From a virus: a DNA stretch of 56,472 bases. Within the stretch, counting starts at the first letter, position 1, and the number at the start of each line of letters is the position of its first letter. The position numbers and the translations under genes are program-made. Below the pieces are notes generated by a model, which saw only the letters and a list, made by a program, of their open reading frames with translations, was not told the DNA's origin and did no database searches. Below, in pieces: positions 34,234 to 43,514 of this stretch. The stretch lies in IMG/VR virus record IMGVR_UViG_3300019926_000239, positions 1 through 56,472 of that record, one strand, 5' to 3'.

Positions 34234-35394
34234 ATGGCAAAACTAACAGACGGCAGCGAAACGATAGCAAGCAACCTAACGCCCAAAGAGGTGCGCGCGC
34301 TACGCAACCGCGGCGTTGAGGTGTCGATGGAGATAACGCAAGAGTCCGGCACCGGCGCGGGCGACGAGGAGGAAATCGAGGACGAGAAGGACGAACTCGA
34401 CGAACTCGATGAGGAGGGTGAGAACACCGAGTGGCATGGTGTGGATGAGGATGAGGATTATGAGAGCGCAAGCCGTAGCGACCGCCGCCGCGTTGAGCGC
34501 GCACAACGTGAGGCGGACAAGAACGAGACGCCACTCGGCAAGCGCATCAACGACCGCGACGAGCGCATCACCGGCGGCGATAACCCGTACTACAACAACG
34601 AACAACTACGTGAGGAGATGGCGGACAACAACATGATAACGGACGTGCGCCGGGCGTTCGAGAAGTTCGCCACCGAGGACGTTAAGCGCCGGGAAACCAG
34701 CGGCGACCGCCTCAACATGAGAGCCGCCACCCGGCACCTAAGCGGCGACTACTCCGAGCGCCACGTTTACGAGAGCGAATACACCGCGGCAACCGGTGGG
34801 CGCACGATAGGCGTGGCACTCGACATAAGCGGCAGCATGGACGGCATACGCATCAAGCAAGCCAAGATGGCACTCGCCTCACTTGCGGAAGCCGCCGATG
34901 CGATAGGCGATGAGTTAGTGGCAAGCGGCTACACGACGGCGGACACCTCGACCGGTGCCGAGGACATCCGAACGCCACTCATCACGGCACCAGGTGAGTC
35001 GTTCCGATACAAGCACCTCGACAGCGTGGCACCCAACGGCTACACGCCCACGGCGTGCGGCATCAACGACGCCGCCGACCTACTACGCGACGAGGGCGGC
35101 AAAGAACTCGTCCTGGTGTGTATTACGGACGGCGTGCCGACGCACGACCTCGAAGGCAACCACCTCGGCGACGGTGCCACGGAGGCGGTTGAGGACGCGG
35201 CACGCCTCACCAACAAACTACGCGCGGAGGGCATCAAGGTGTTCGGCATAGGCATCGGCGGCGCACGACGCGACCTTATGCGTGAGATGTTCGGTGAGAG
35301 CGGGTTCGTTATGACCACCAGCGACCAACTTGCGGACGACTTGGTTGAGATGTACGAAGACCAACTCGACATCGAGCGCCCGCACTCGTTCTAA
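34234..35394 (+). CDS. VWA (von Willebrand A) domain protein, 386 aa
   Basis: A full MIDAS metal site is visible: D197-x-S199-x-S201 in LDISGSMDG, the Thr of YTPTACG (T273) and D299 in CITDGVPTHD. The N-terminal part is acidic and helical, with LNMRAATRHLSGDYSER before the VWA domain. Such proteins work with MoxR AAA+ ATPases in protein or cofactor remodelling. The C-terminus ends after a standard VWA helix. It has its own copy of the shared promoter. Confidence 0.85.
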   Translation: MAKLTDGSETIASNLTPKEVRALRNRGVEVSMEITQESGTGAGDEEEIEDEKDELDELDEEGENTEWHGVDEDEDYESASRSDRRRVERAQREADKNETPLGKRINDRDERITGGDNPYYNNEQLREEMADNNMITDVRRAFEKFATEDVKRRETSGDRLNMRAATRHLSGDYSERHVYESEYTAATGGRTIGVALDISGSMDGIRIKQAKMALASLAEAADAIGDELVASGYTTADTSTGAEDIRTPLITAPGESFRYKHLDSVAPNGYTPTACGINDAADLLRDEGGKELVLVCITDGVPTHDLEGNHLGDGATEAVEDAARLTNKLRAEGIKVFGIGIGGARRDLMREMFGESGFVMTTSDQLADDLVEMYEDQLDIERPHSF

Positions 35395-35658
35395 CGCCGC
35401 CACCCGCCGCACCGCACCGCACCGCACTACTCTTTTCCCCGACCTCCTCGACTCGACGCCGGCAGCGGTTTCTATATGTTGAGGTTGGGCATGGATACCG
35501 ACGAGATGTAGTCCTCGACGTGGCGATGAGGTCGTCGAGACTCCTCGTACGTGGTTGAACGGCGCGGTGGGCGCGGGCACGCGCGGTTCCACGCGGTGAT
35601 ATGCGGGCGATATTGCGGTGGTCGAGGGGCACCCCGCCGCCGTATGGCGATTGCCCCA
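35395..35658. other. Gene-free stretch between the VWA and MoxR genes
   Basis: No convincing gene on either strand. It starts with a short tandem repeat of ACCGC (35411-35425) and a T-rich spot (CTCTTTTCC) that may end the VWA transcript. The middle (35470-35560) has TTCTATATGTTG, resembling a TATA element, but only short frames follow. The end carries the GC-rich repeat at 35571 and the MoxR promoter. Confidence 0.4.
35571..35598. repeat. GC-rich intergenic repeat
   Basis: GCGCGGGCACGCGCGGTTCC followed by ACGCGGTG. Same motif as near 6635 and 40434. Confidence 0.55.
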
Positions 35659-35719
35659 CCATAAGGTATAAGTAGTACCGCGGTGAATGGACGAATGCGA
35701 GCAAAGAGGTGAACCCAAG
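35659..35719 (+). promoter_or_regulatory. Shared promoter and leader, type II
   Basis: CCATAAGGTATAAGTAGTAC, then CGCGGTGAATGGACGAATG and CGAGCAAAGAGGTGAACCC before the ATG at 35720. The leader matches the one at 48582 almost exactly. Confidence 0.75.
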
Positions 35720-37096
35720 ATGGCAAAAAAGAGCGACTACATCAAGGCGATAGCACAGAACGACGAGAACCCCACCGCGGACGAGATAGCCGACGAGGTT
35801 GACGAACACCTCGGGCACACGCAACGCAAACTCAAGGAACTCGCCGAGGAGGGCGAGATTGAGCGTGAGCGCGGCGGCAACGGCTACGAATACTTCCTCC
35901 CCGCGGAGGCGGAGGCGCTTGTGGGTGAGGGCGGCAGCAACGGACTCGACCGTATGCCCGTTAACCGCGGCTACGATTTCAGCAACCACCGCGTTGAGGA
36001 ACCCCACGAATACTTCTCAAGCGACGACGAGTTAGCGGAACTCAACGCGATGGTTAACGCGCGTGAGGCAACCGGCGAACCCGTGCGCGCACTCATAGAC
36101 GGCGACACCGGCACCGGCAAAACAACCCTCGCCGAAAACGTGAGCGCGCTACAAGAAGCCGCATACTTTGAGGTTCAGATGTCCCCCAACATGGACGAGG
36201 GCGACCTATTTGGTAGCCCGGCACTCGCCGGCGACGAAAGTGTGTGGGTGGACGGCACGGTTACGAAGGCGCTTATGGCAAGCGCGGCACCCGAAACCCA
36301 GGTCAAGAACGGGTGGGCGGCAGACCTCGAAAGCGCACACGACGGCACCGTGGTTCTCCTCATAGACGAGGTTAACCGCGCACCGCCACGCGCTAAGAAC
36401 GCACTCTTTAGCGCACTCGACCACCGCGGGCACGTTACGCTTGAGGGACCGCGCGCCGGTGAGGTCATAAGCGGCGACCCCCTCGACCTGGTTGTTATAG
36501 GCACCATCAACCAGGGCGATGAGTACCACGGCACGGCGCGGATGGACTTAGCCGAAAAGAGCCGGTGGACGACGAGGTTCACCAGCGAGTACCTGGCACA
36601 AGACCCCGACGGTGAGGGCGTTGAGCGCGAGGCGGAACTCTTGGTTAGCCGTAAGGGCGTTGCGCCGGAACTTGCGCGCACGATGGTCGAGACGGTTGCC
36701 CGCGTACGCAAGCGCGCCAACGACCGGAGTGACCGCGCGGTAACGTTCGGCATACCTACGCGTGCGGTGCTTGCGTGGGGCGGCACGGCACACGCCCTCG
36801 CCGAAGCCGGTCTCGACAACCCCGTGGTGCGCGCCGCGGAACGCGCGGTGGTTAAGCCGTTCTACGACAAGGCGGAACACCAGGACGCCCGCGACGAGGT
36901 TATGAGCATCATCGAGGACAAACTACACGGCGCACCCTTTGAGGCGGACGCGTACGAGGAGTTCGCCGCCGACGAGATTGTTGAGTGCGGCGAGTGCGAC
37001 TACCGCACCAGCAAGCGCCGCGCCGAGGACGAGGGCGTGATGGCGGTTATGGAGTGCCCGGAATGCGGCGGCACGGTTGAGCGTAAGAGCCGGTAA
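35720..37096 (+). CDS. MoxR-like AAA+ ATPase with N-terminal wHTH and C-terminal zinc ribbon, 458 aa
   Basis: Residues 1-70 form a winged helix (ADEIADEVDEHLGHTQRKLK). The AAA+ core has Walker A GDTGTGKT (128-135) and Walker B LIDEVNRAPP with D216-E217, then GTINQGDEY as sensor. MoxR-type features such as DLFGSPAL are present. The C-terminus adds a zinc ribbon (CGECDYRTS and CPECGG). A DNA- or RNA-reading end on a MoxR ATPase is unusual. It likely powers the VWA/metalloprotein pair encoded just upstream. Confidence 0.85.
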   Translation: MAKKSDYIKAIAQNDENPTADEIADEVDEHLGHTQRKLKELAEEGEIERERGGNGYEYFLPAEAEALVGEGGSNGLDRMPVNRGYDFSNHRVEEPHEYFSSDDELAELNAMVNAREATGEPVRALIDGDTGTGKTTLAENVSALQEAAYFEVQMSPNMDEGDLFGSPALAGDESVWVDGTVTKALMASAAPETQVKNGWAADLESAHDGTVVLLIDEVNRAPPRAKNALFSALDHRGHVTLEGPRAGEVISGDPLDLVVIGTINQGDEYHGTARMDLAEKSRWTTRFTSEYLAQDPDGEGVEREAELLVSRKGVAPELARTMVETVARVRKRANDRSDRAVTFGIPTRAVLAWGGTAHALAEAGLDNPVVRAAERAVVKPFYDKAEHQDARDEVMSIIEDKLHGAPFEADAYEEFAADEIVECGECDYRTSKRRAEDEGVMAVMECPECGGTVERKSR

Positions 37097-41123: not shown

Positions 41124-43514
41124 ATGGAGTTTTCGGAGTTACCACAACCGGAACGCAAAGAGCGGGTGAACCCGGACGAGTTGGATGTGGATGGCGATAA
41201 CCCCAACGCGATGAGCGGGGCAACCCTCGACCTCCTCAAGCAAAAGATACGCGACCGCGGGTGGATAGGCAACCACATAATAGCCGATACAGACGGGCTT
41301 ATAGCCGACGGCGAACACCGGTGGCGCGCCGCCCGCGACCTCGGGCTTGACGAGGTGCCGGTGAAGTTCTACGACCTCACCGACGAGGAACGCCGGCTTA
41401 TACGCCAAGAACTCAACAAGATACGCGGCGAACACGACGCCGGCGACGACGCCGATGAGTACGAACGCCTACTCGAAAACGGCTACGATGAGGAGTTGGG
41501 CGACCTCCTCGACGCCACCAGCGACACCGGTGAGTTGAGTGAGGTGCTACAAGAGGCGAAGGATAGTGAGCAAGAGCGCACCGAGGAGATAGTTAAAGAG
41601 GTGGAACCGGAATACAACCTCGAAAACCCCACCACCAACTCACTCGCCGACGACTTCGGCGCACCACCCATAAGCGTCCTCGACGCGAATCAACCGTATT
41701 GGCGTGACCGGAAGCAAGAGTGGCGGGAAACCACCGGCTTGGGTGACATAGACGAGGCGCGTGAGGAGATACAAACCACGTCGAGCGAACGGATGAACCG
41801 TAGCGGCACCGGCAGCACCACAAGCATATTCGACCCCGTGCTTGCGGAACTCATGTACCGGTGGTTCGCACCAAGCAACGCCACCGTCCTCGACCCGTAC
41901 GCCGGCGGGTTAGTACGCGGCGCACTCGCATCCTGGTTCGGGCATGAGTACCACGGCGTTGACATAAACGAGGAACAGATAGAGGTCAACCGCCGCCGGT
42001 GGGACGAGGAGGTGACGCCGCCCGAAACCGCGCCGGACAGCGTAACGCCGCCCACATACCACCACGGCGGCGCGCAAGACATCCCCGAGCCACTCGACGA
42101 CGGCGCACCGGACGAGTACGAGTTCATACTCGCGTGCCCACCATACCACGACCTCGAAGAATACACCGACCAAGAGAACGACCTATCGAACATGGCGTAC
42201 GACGAGTTCTTGATGCACTACCGTGAGAGCATCATAAACGCCGCCGACCTCCTCAAAGACGGGCACTTCGCCGTCTACGTAGTCGGCGACGTACGCGACG
42301 ACGAGGGCGCATACCGCGGTTTGGTAGCCGACACCATCAAGTGCGCACAGAACGCGGGCTTGAGCCTATACAACGACGCCGTGATGCGCACACCACTCGG
42401 CAGCGTACAACTCCGCGCCCGCAACTTCTTCGTCCCAGGGCGCAAACTCGTCAAAAGCCACCAAAACATCCTCGTATTCTACAAAGGCACGGAACCGGAT
42501 ATACACGCCATCGAGGAGACGCACGGTGAGCCAAATGAGGCGGTGGATATGAAGGCGGATAGCGTGGTGCGTGAGCAAGTAGCCAAAGAGGAGGACGAGG
42601 CGGCAACCAACGGCACCACGGAAACAACCACCAGCGAAGAAACCACCAACGCCGACGAGTTCACACCACCCACCGACCACACGCCCGACGTATCACCTAT
42701 CGAGGAGTACCAACACAACGGCGGCACCGTACACGTGAAACGCGACGACGCCTACGTGTGGGCGGGCGTACGCGGCATCAAAGGGCGCGCACTCAACCAA
42801 CTCATCAACGAAGCCGACCTCGACCAGCACAACGGCATAACGATGGCGTGCGCACGCCAAAGCCCCAACACCATACGCATCGCCAACCTCGGCGAGTACC
42901 TCGACGTTGAGGCGCACGTCCACACCTCACACGGCGGTTATACCGAAGTAATGGAAATCGCCGAACAACAAGGCGCAACCATACACCAGCATAAACCAGG
43001 GTACATGAACGTCATCAAATCCAAAGCGCAAGAGGACGCCGAGGAGAACCACCGCCTACTCATCCCCTTCGCCGTAAAACACCCGGTGGCGCGTGACGTA
43101 GCCGCCACACAAACCACCAACGTACAACAACACATCGACGAGGAGGAACCCAACCGCATCGTAGCACCCGTCGGCAGCGGCACAAGCCTAAGCGGTTATC
43201 TCAAAGGGCTACACGAAGCCGGCTACACCAACACACCCATACTCGGCGTCAAAGTAGGCAACGACCCCACGCCCACCCTTAACGAACTATATCCTGGGTG
43301 GCGGGAAAACCACGACGCCACCGTTGAGTTGGTGGAAAGCGACCTCGAATACCAAGAGACGCCACCCACTAACAAACAACTCCTCGGCACCGGCAGCCAA
43401 CGCCTAAGACTCGACCCCAACTACGAGGCTAAAGCAATCCCTCACTTAAAAGAGGGCGACCTTATGCTTGTCGTCGCACTACGTAGCACACTACCACCAC
43501 ATCCGTACGAATAA
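41124..43514 (+). CDS. ParB-like / DNA methyltransferase / PLP-enzyme fusion, 796 aa
   Basis: Three domains follow each other. Residues 1-120 are ParB/Srx-like, with LIADGEHRWRAA. Residues about 200-465 are an N4/N6 DNA methyltransferase of the phage ParB-linked kind: SAM site VLDPYAGGLVRGALASWFG and catalytic CPPY at 338-341, then FAVYVVGDVRD and HQNILVFYKG. After a Thr/Glu linker, residues about 540-796 look like a fold-type II PLP enzyme: VKRDDAYVWAGVRGIKGRAL with K553, ARQSPNTIRIA, and phosphate loop VGSGTSLSGYLKG from G684. The PLP part is rarely joined to a methyltransferase. A role in DNA modification is inferred. Confidence 0.8.
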   Translation: MEFSELPQPERKERVNPDELDVDGDNPNAMSGATLDLLKQKIRDRGWIGNHIIADTDGLIADGEHRWRAARDLGLDEVPVKFYDLTDEERRLIRQELNKIRGEHDAGDDADEYERLLENGYDEELGDLLDATSDTGELSEVLQEAKDSEQERTEEIVKEVEPEYNLENPTTNSLADDFGAPPISVLDANQPYWRDRKQEWRETTGLGDIDEAREEIQTTSSERMNRSGTGSTTSIFDPVLAELMYRWFAPSNATVLDPYAGGLVRGALASWFGHEYHGVDINEEQIEVNRRRWDEEVTPPETAPDSVTPPTYHHGGAQDIPEPLDDGAPDEYEFILACPPYHDLEEYTDQENDLSNMAYDEFLMHYRESIINAADLLKDGHFAVYVVGDVRDDEGAYRGLVADTIKCAQNAGLSLYNDAVMRTPLGSVQLRARNFFVPGRKLVKSHQNILVFYKGTEPDIHAIEETHGEPNEAVDMKADSVVREQVAKEEDEAATNGTTETTTSEETTNADEFTPPTDHTPDVSPIEEYQHNGGTVHVKRDDAYVWAGVRGIKGRALNQLINEADLDQHNGITMACARQSPNTIRIANLGEYLDVEAHVHTSHGGYTEVMEIAEQQGATIHQHKPGYMNVIKSKAQEDAEENHRLLIPFAVKHPVARDVAATQTTNVQQHIDEEEPNRIVAPVGSGTSLSGYLKGLHEAGYTNTPILGVKVGNDPTPTLNELYPGWRENHDATVELVESDLEYQETPPTNKQLLGTGSQRLRLDPNYEAKAIPHLKEGDLMLVVALRSTLPPHPYE

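Follow-up and report, generated by a model that had tools for sequence, protein, structure and literature searches.

A single viral gene joins a ParB-like domain, a DNA methyltransferase (MTase) and a fold-type II pyridoxal-phosphate (PLP)-dependent enzyme (PALP), and the last two belong together well beyond this virus: 61 of 64 non-redundant viral PALP loci carry an MTase on the same record, which, with the repeated independent fusions described below, makes it well supported that the PLP and MTase domains are functionally linked. We incline slightly to the view that the gene product is a bipartite viral DNA base-hypermodification enzyme, in which an MTase step would be followed by a PLP step, protecting the virus. 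The gene lies on the plus strand at 41124-43514 of the IMG/VR record IMGVR_UViG_3300019926_000239, which was analyzed over its whole length of 56,472 nucleotides (hereafter the window).

The gene is one uninterrupted open reading frame (ORF) of 796 amino acids that begins with ATG and occupies 41124-43514 exactly; the opposite strand has stops throughout this interval. An earlier sequence-only reading had placed three domains in this chain, and ParB_N, an N4/N6-type MTase and PALP were all matched in it; CPPY at residues 338-341, GIKGRAL with K553, QSPNT at 579-583 and GSGTSLSG at 684-691 likewise stand where that reading put them. From the N-terminus, a ParB-like region (residues 1-160; 41124-41603) is followed by a conserved linker module defined from alignments of relatives (residues ~173-208; 41640-41747), the MTase domain (residues 222-482; 41787-42569), an acidic, low-complexity inter-domain tether (residues 483-517; 42570-42674) and the PALP domain (residues 518-796; 42675-43511), all on the plus strand. 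The tether is apparent from the sequence and from low pLDDT, with residues 461-511 of the AlphaFold model of the window protein falling below 55 except in one helix. The same ParB-MTase-PALP order was looked for in other viruses and found in two independent contigs (L007 and L014), and the window fusion is therefore neither a chance event nor a chimeric read. At L067 and L069 an MTase-PALP chain occurs with ParB on the preceding ORF.

The C-terminal domain has the characteristics of a PLP enzyme. Pfam PALP (PF00291) matches residues 530-712 (E = 2.8e-11; 43.7 bits, above the cut-off of 35), and a PALP profile built from 52 relatives finds D-cysteine desulfhydrase as the best match in the PDB (4d8t, E = 5.6e-13), along with ACC deaminases (1j0a and 1f2d, E ~2e-12). 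In an AlphaFold2 model, most of the stretch from residue 520 to 790 has a mean pLDDT above 90, and in Foldseek the modeled domain falls with D-cysteine desulfhydrase/ACC deaminase (7ysl/7ysk, E = 1.6e-13); a second AlphaFold model, of a relative of the insertion type (L009), has the same nearest folds. The profile match, the predicted fold and the Foldseek result agree on the fold-type II assignment first proposed from the sequence, so that the PLP fold of this domain, as judged from profiles and models, is well supported.

The catalytic residues point in the same direction. In the profile alignment, K553 (42780-42782), S580 (42861-42863) and Y767 fall on Lys51, Ser78 and Tyr287 of the Salmonella D-cysteine desulfhydrase StDCyD, residues to which roles have been assigned (PMC3344862). 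Y767 opens the motif YEAK (residues 767-770; 43422-43433), in which E768 aligns to Thr288 of StDCyD, the position of Glu295/296 in ACC deaminases, in a stretch where the local alignment score is low and the motif is plain; this glutamate bonds the PLP pyridine nitrogen in ACC deaminases (PMC3344862), and E768 is a predicted ligand of that type. The predicted Schiff-base lysine is K in all 54 comparable non-redundant relatives, which bears out the role proposed for K553. Among 55 non-redundant relatives, the position of S580 is S in 53, Y767 and the A and K of YEAK are each present in 55, and the position of E768 is E in 53 and D in 2; within the phosphate-binding loop GSGTSLSG (residues 684-691; 43173-43196), G684 is conserved in 55/55, S685 in 52/55 and G686 in 51/55. 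In a second PALP clade (the Mae-JY30 type) the Lys is likewise present, and YDAK stands for YEAK. Structure prediction thus returns a PLP fold, and the lysine and GSG are conserved among relatives. The window copy is divergent, with A771 for the family Cys and L782 for the family Trp, and retains every catalytic residue; it is apparently a working, active-type enzyme, and binding of PLP is predicted.

By sequence and model, the enzymes nearest to the viral PALP are D-cysteine desulfhydrase and ACC deaminase; we do not file it as an ACC deaminase. It has in common with these enzymes (1j0a, 1f2d, 4d8t) the fold, the K-S-Y catalytic set and the signatures RDD...GxK and DPxYExK, and its YEAK matches the Glu at the pyridine nitrogen of ACC deaminase (YEGK). 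However, identity is only 15-22%, the viral domain is shorter (~260 versus ~330 amino acids), it has SPQ/SPN where they have QSN, and unlike them it is found almost only in viruses and is tied to a DNA MTase.

The METHYLTRANSFERASE domain of the window protein matches the phrog_498 profile (PHROG) with E = 1.1e-88, and Pfam N6_N4_Mtase (PF01555) matches residues 334-477 (E = 2e-9); we infer that it acts on DNA. Its profile finds the beta-class enzyme 2zie in the PDB (E = 2e-14) in permuted order, the motif I segment matching the C-terminal part of 2zie and the CPPY segment its N-terminal part, and in the window MTase motif I precedes motif IV. Motif I, located by alignment with the family, is DPYAGGLVRG (residues 257-266; 41892-41921); the family consensus, DPFAGGSVRG, reads GGSVR against the DPFxGxGx of N4/N6 amino-DNA methyltransferases, and its Arg is shared by 154 of 155 matched members. 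Motif IV (residues 338-341; 42135-42146), identified through matched family members, is CPPY against [DNS]PP[YFW]. The Cys, which had been taken as an oddity of the window protein, proves to be a family-wide signature, present in 70 of 71 MTase members reached from PALP (the remaining one is unassigned) and in 157/157 members with a readable motif, about half of which were collected by a scan that relied in part on the motif itself. With Cys for D/N/S in motif IV, even methylation, as read from these motifs, is a putative step. The Cys was also considered as evidence for PLP coupling and rejected, as it is present in members without PALP too.

A comparison of MTase residues with PALP presence found no column that separates PALP-bearing from PALP-lacking members, only surface noise. 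The MTase reaction would therefore be shared, and PALP would add a further step that is optional. The MTase nearest to that of the window is gp11 of HCTV-2 (about 50% identity), a virus without PALP, and because this nearest branch of the MTase tree lacks PALP, the window fusion is probably a separate event of its own.

A scan of IMG/VR with the window PALP as a single protein found no relatives; a search with an alignment of five relatives gave 189 confirmed PALP relatives, of which 80 loci were read. After dereplication at 90%, with the window and the phage seeds counted in, 64 loci made up the set used here. PALP is inserted inside the MTase in 28 of these (plus three truncated cases), lies C-terminal to it in five, including the window, is encoded adjacent to it (within 300 bp) in 13, and is encoded near it, elsewhere in the ~10-kb locus, in nine; in the 22 loci with separate genes the two enzymes need not touch. 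The family MTase was not found beside PALP in the remaining six (L066, L003, L078, L017, L074 and L083). L066 (4977-7217) encodes PALP-ParB-MTase, the sole N-terminal PALP order among the 64 loci, with SPPY rather than CPPY. Motif I of the L066 MTase is DPxxGWGxR, and the enzyme resembles the MTase of Staphylococcus phage Alsa_1. That phage (L003) and L078 have a divergent MTase, the match in L078 containing one in-frame stop. Only L017, L074 and L083, all incomplete contigs, have no MTase on the contig. The PALP of L083 (3466-4617) adjoins a radical-SAM protein (PF04055, E = 8e-6).

Seen from the other side, 80 loci fetched by the MTase included 14 with PALP close by and about 65 without; the PALP matches at L090 and L092 are partial. 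PALP is thus nearly always with the MTase and the MTase mostly without PALP, so that PALP needs the MTase more than the reverse. In cells, a strict pattern scan of 84,980 species gave one match to the PALP family. This is in Bradyrhizobium sp. SRS-191 (L167, 5932-6717), with no family MTase nearby and, by eye, mobile-element-like genes around it.

Wherever PALP is inserted, it enters the MTase at a single joint, after motif II and before the segment with motif III and CPPY. This joint lies between the two segments that are permuted relative to 2zie, where beta-class chains begin and end, and it likely tolerates an insert. Both PALP clades use it (clade 2 includes R6L; Pam4 and most of the others are in clade 1). 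The PALP and MTase trees were quick and contain many weak branches, and only forced minima on strongly supported branches were used: the PALP tree has at least five changes each for the separate and inserted states and two for the C-terminal state, and the MTase tree at least six for PALP presence and at least six for insertion. As reconstructed from these trees, the association requires a history of repeated gain, loss and re-fusion.

The N-terminal part and linker are candidates for docking. ParB_N (PF02195) matches residues 29-90 at E = 5e-5 and 23.7 bits, just under the cut-off of 26.3 bits, PHROG ParB-like families match the N-terminus at E = 2e-11, and ParB Box II (GxxRxxA) is present as GEHRWRAA at ~63-70. 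Residues 1-147 are 51-53% identical to the N-termini of the adenine methyltransferases of the haloviruses PhiCh1, phiH and HSTV-1, and so the ParB module has been swapped between MTase types. The linker has the family consensus LAxRFxxPPFxVLDARxGxWxxRKRxWLALGIxSExGR, and its usual place is before the MTase. At L057 (8043-10451) and L047 (7473-10079) a family-A DNA polymerase carries this module at its N-terminal end instead (E = 4e-22), and it is missing from the MTase ORF of both loci. This move to a polymerase suggests that the linker docks the MTase and that DNA modification may be coupled to replication.

The only recurrent neighbors of PALP are MTase and ParB genes and, in a minority of loci, those for family-A DNA polymerase, helicase-like proteins and replication; for CmoA, ligase or PAPS reductase no such recurrence was seen in these neighborhoods. 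PADLOC returned mainly generic type II MTase models and one weak mad2 MTase match (E = 3.8e-7), leaving a defense system unsupported. By eye, a uracil-DNA-glycosylase-like domain is fused to a family-A polymerase or exonuclease at L036 (6881-10234) and at L024, L028 and L079, and the polymerase neighbor at L036 seems to carry an intein-like insert. In three loci (L033, 1-2235; L069, 3252-5729; L081, 3942-6806) a Cys-rich domain stands beside PALP in the same chain; it weakly resembles DUF3109 (PF11307) in L033 (E = 0.005) and L069 (E = 1e-4), whereas the domain of L081 is visible only in the alignment.

We propose that the ParB-like domain and linker would dock the enzyme on viral DNA, probably newly made; that the CPPY MTase domain would bind SAM, flip the target base and transfer a SAM-derived group; that the attached PLP domain, of the ACC-deaminase/D-cysteine-desulfhydrase type, would then perform an amino-acid reaction either for that base or directly on it; and that a bulkier final modification would result, giving protection against the nucleases of the host. 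A target base shared by both domains, this order of steps and the protective role are what we infer. The sequence-only reading had proposed DNA hypermodification by the PLP-MTase pair; the functional tie that this supposed has held up, and an amino-acid-derived group on the base may be its outcome. A plain methyl would give a PLP enzyme no handle, so that the group transferred by the MTase would have to be a different one, or else PALP would have to act at a different atom. As a tentative and rather unlikely route, the MTase, with its altered motifs (CPPY, and GGSVR as part of the SAM loop), might transfer the 3-amino-3-carboxypropyl arm of SAM, presenting a DNA-bound alpha-amino acid to the PLP domain, or the flipped base might capture a PLP-bound aminoacrylate. 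Aminocarboxypropyl transfer is attractive because alpha-amino acids, here a DNA-bound one, are what PLP enzymes naturally act on. If so, a PLP enzyme converting an amino acid carried by a DNA base would be a new class of hypermodification, a prospect we regard with the same doubt. Confidence in domain placement is low (AlphaFold pTM 0.47-0.52), and facing active sites of MTase and PALP can therefore not be claimed.

Several other explanations would account for part of these data. PALP could be a metabolic side enzyme (e.g., a D-cysteine, ACC or serine deaminase) tethered to the MTase and never touching DNA, which would supply ammonia or sulfide or clear a by-product near the modification site. 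We think this unlikely: a diffusible metabolite would hardly account for repeated fusion at one MTase joint or for the near absence of viral-family PALPs lacking an MTase, although its nearest solved relatives are catabolic deaminases and desulfhydrases and the MTase is unchanged with or without it. A PAPS-reductase-like gene a few genes from R6L gp1 would suit a side enzyme and also DNA thiolation, in which the MTase would transfer a sulfur-containing or thiolated product and PALP, as a D-cysteine-desulfhydrase-like source of sulfide, would be the sulfur donor; PAPS reductase, however, is not recurrent among the neighbors, nor is any sulfur-transfer gene. Thiolation draws further on D-cysteine desulfhydrase being the best profile and fold match, but E768 beside the catalytic Tyr is of the ACC-deaminase and not the desulfhydrase type, and we give this explanation the least credence of all.

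Enzyme folds fused as sensors are common in general, and PALP is optional for the MTase, so that the PLP fold might be a non-catalytic sensor or regulator responding to amino acid or PLP status, a regulatory use that the sequence-only reading had also entertained. A sensor would be free to lose its catalytic residues, whereas the full catalytic set is kept in essentially all main-clade members and Lys and Tyr in both PALP clades; we accordingly disfavor this use as improbable. It is a little less probable again that the protein is an ordinary anti-restriction N4/N6 DNA methylase to which one virus happened to fuse an unrelated enzyme. Fusions of ParB with an N6_N4 MTase are indeed widespread among phages (PMC12704722), and phrog_498 members without PALP are common, as the MTase-seeded loci show, but the dozens of unrelated viral contigs in which PALP is inserted, appended or adjacent exclude a chance fusion.

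Returning to the proposed hypermodification enzyme, parts of it have precedents. Phage ParB-N6_N4 DNA methyltransferase fusions have been surveyed and were known before; those of phrog_498 have the ParB and MTase core of the window protein and differ in having no PLP domain, the main text of the survey containing no PLP or pyridoxal domain (PMC12704722). The closest proven logic, by analogy, for a handle followed by an amino acid is that of CmoX/CmoY from Synechococcus phage S-B43, which place a carboxymethyl handle on cytosine and then glycine (PMC12783734). In line with the model proposed here, an MTase-fold enzyme adds a SAM-derived group and a second enzyme an amino acid, and ParB proteins occur in the neighborhood; but the first enzyme, CmoX, is of the C5-cytosine MTase type, the second, CmoY, is an ATP-dependent amide ligase, and no PLP enzyme takes part (PMC12783734), whereas the window system has a PF01555-type MTase, PALP as second enzyme and no recurrent ligase in its neighborhoods. 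All four parts (ParB, the linker, a CPPY MTase and PALP) are also united in a single chain in Pseudanabaena phage Pam4 (UQS95213) and in Erythrobacter phage R6L (gp1), with PALP inside the MTase and not C-terminal as in the window. The Pam4 gene is annotated as a pyridoxal-phosphate dependent enzyme and R6L gp1 as a DNA modification methylase, the name given to ORF 1 in the R6L genome paper. XAI96327 of Microcystis phage Mae-JY30 (L005, 4783-5490), mis-named DNA modification methylase, is a stand-alone PALP.

A literature search that covered few subscription journals found no paper describing MTase-PLP coupling; the ParB-MTase fusion is already known, and its union with a PLP enzyme is apparently undescribed. 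The system would be categorically new if a PLP-made base is found. Were the proposal true, a widespread viral DNA modification pathway would lie hidden in genes annotated as plain methylases, its breadth indicated by the confirmed IMG/VR relatives and by cultured phages elsewhere; fold-type II PLP chemistry would join the DNA methyltransferases, and there would be a concrete origin, open to testing, for phage nucleosides that have yet to be identified. Phages of both kinds, with the PLP domain and lacking it, are in culture and can readily be compared.

The window comes from a virus of halophilic archaea. Its record, a viral contig, encodes portal, MuF and an encapsulin-like capsid protein, and its TerL is nearest to that of Halorubrum phage Hardycor1 (62.5% identity), in which a "putative Dam methylase" takes the place of the window fusion gene just upstream of TerL. 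Elsewhere in the window (34234-37093), a VWA-domain protein adjoins a MoxR/CbbQ-type AAA ATPase, with which it makes up a chaperone-like pair of this halovirus.
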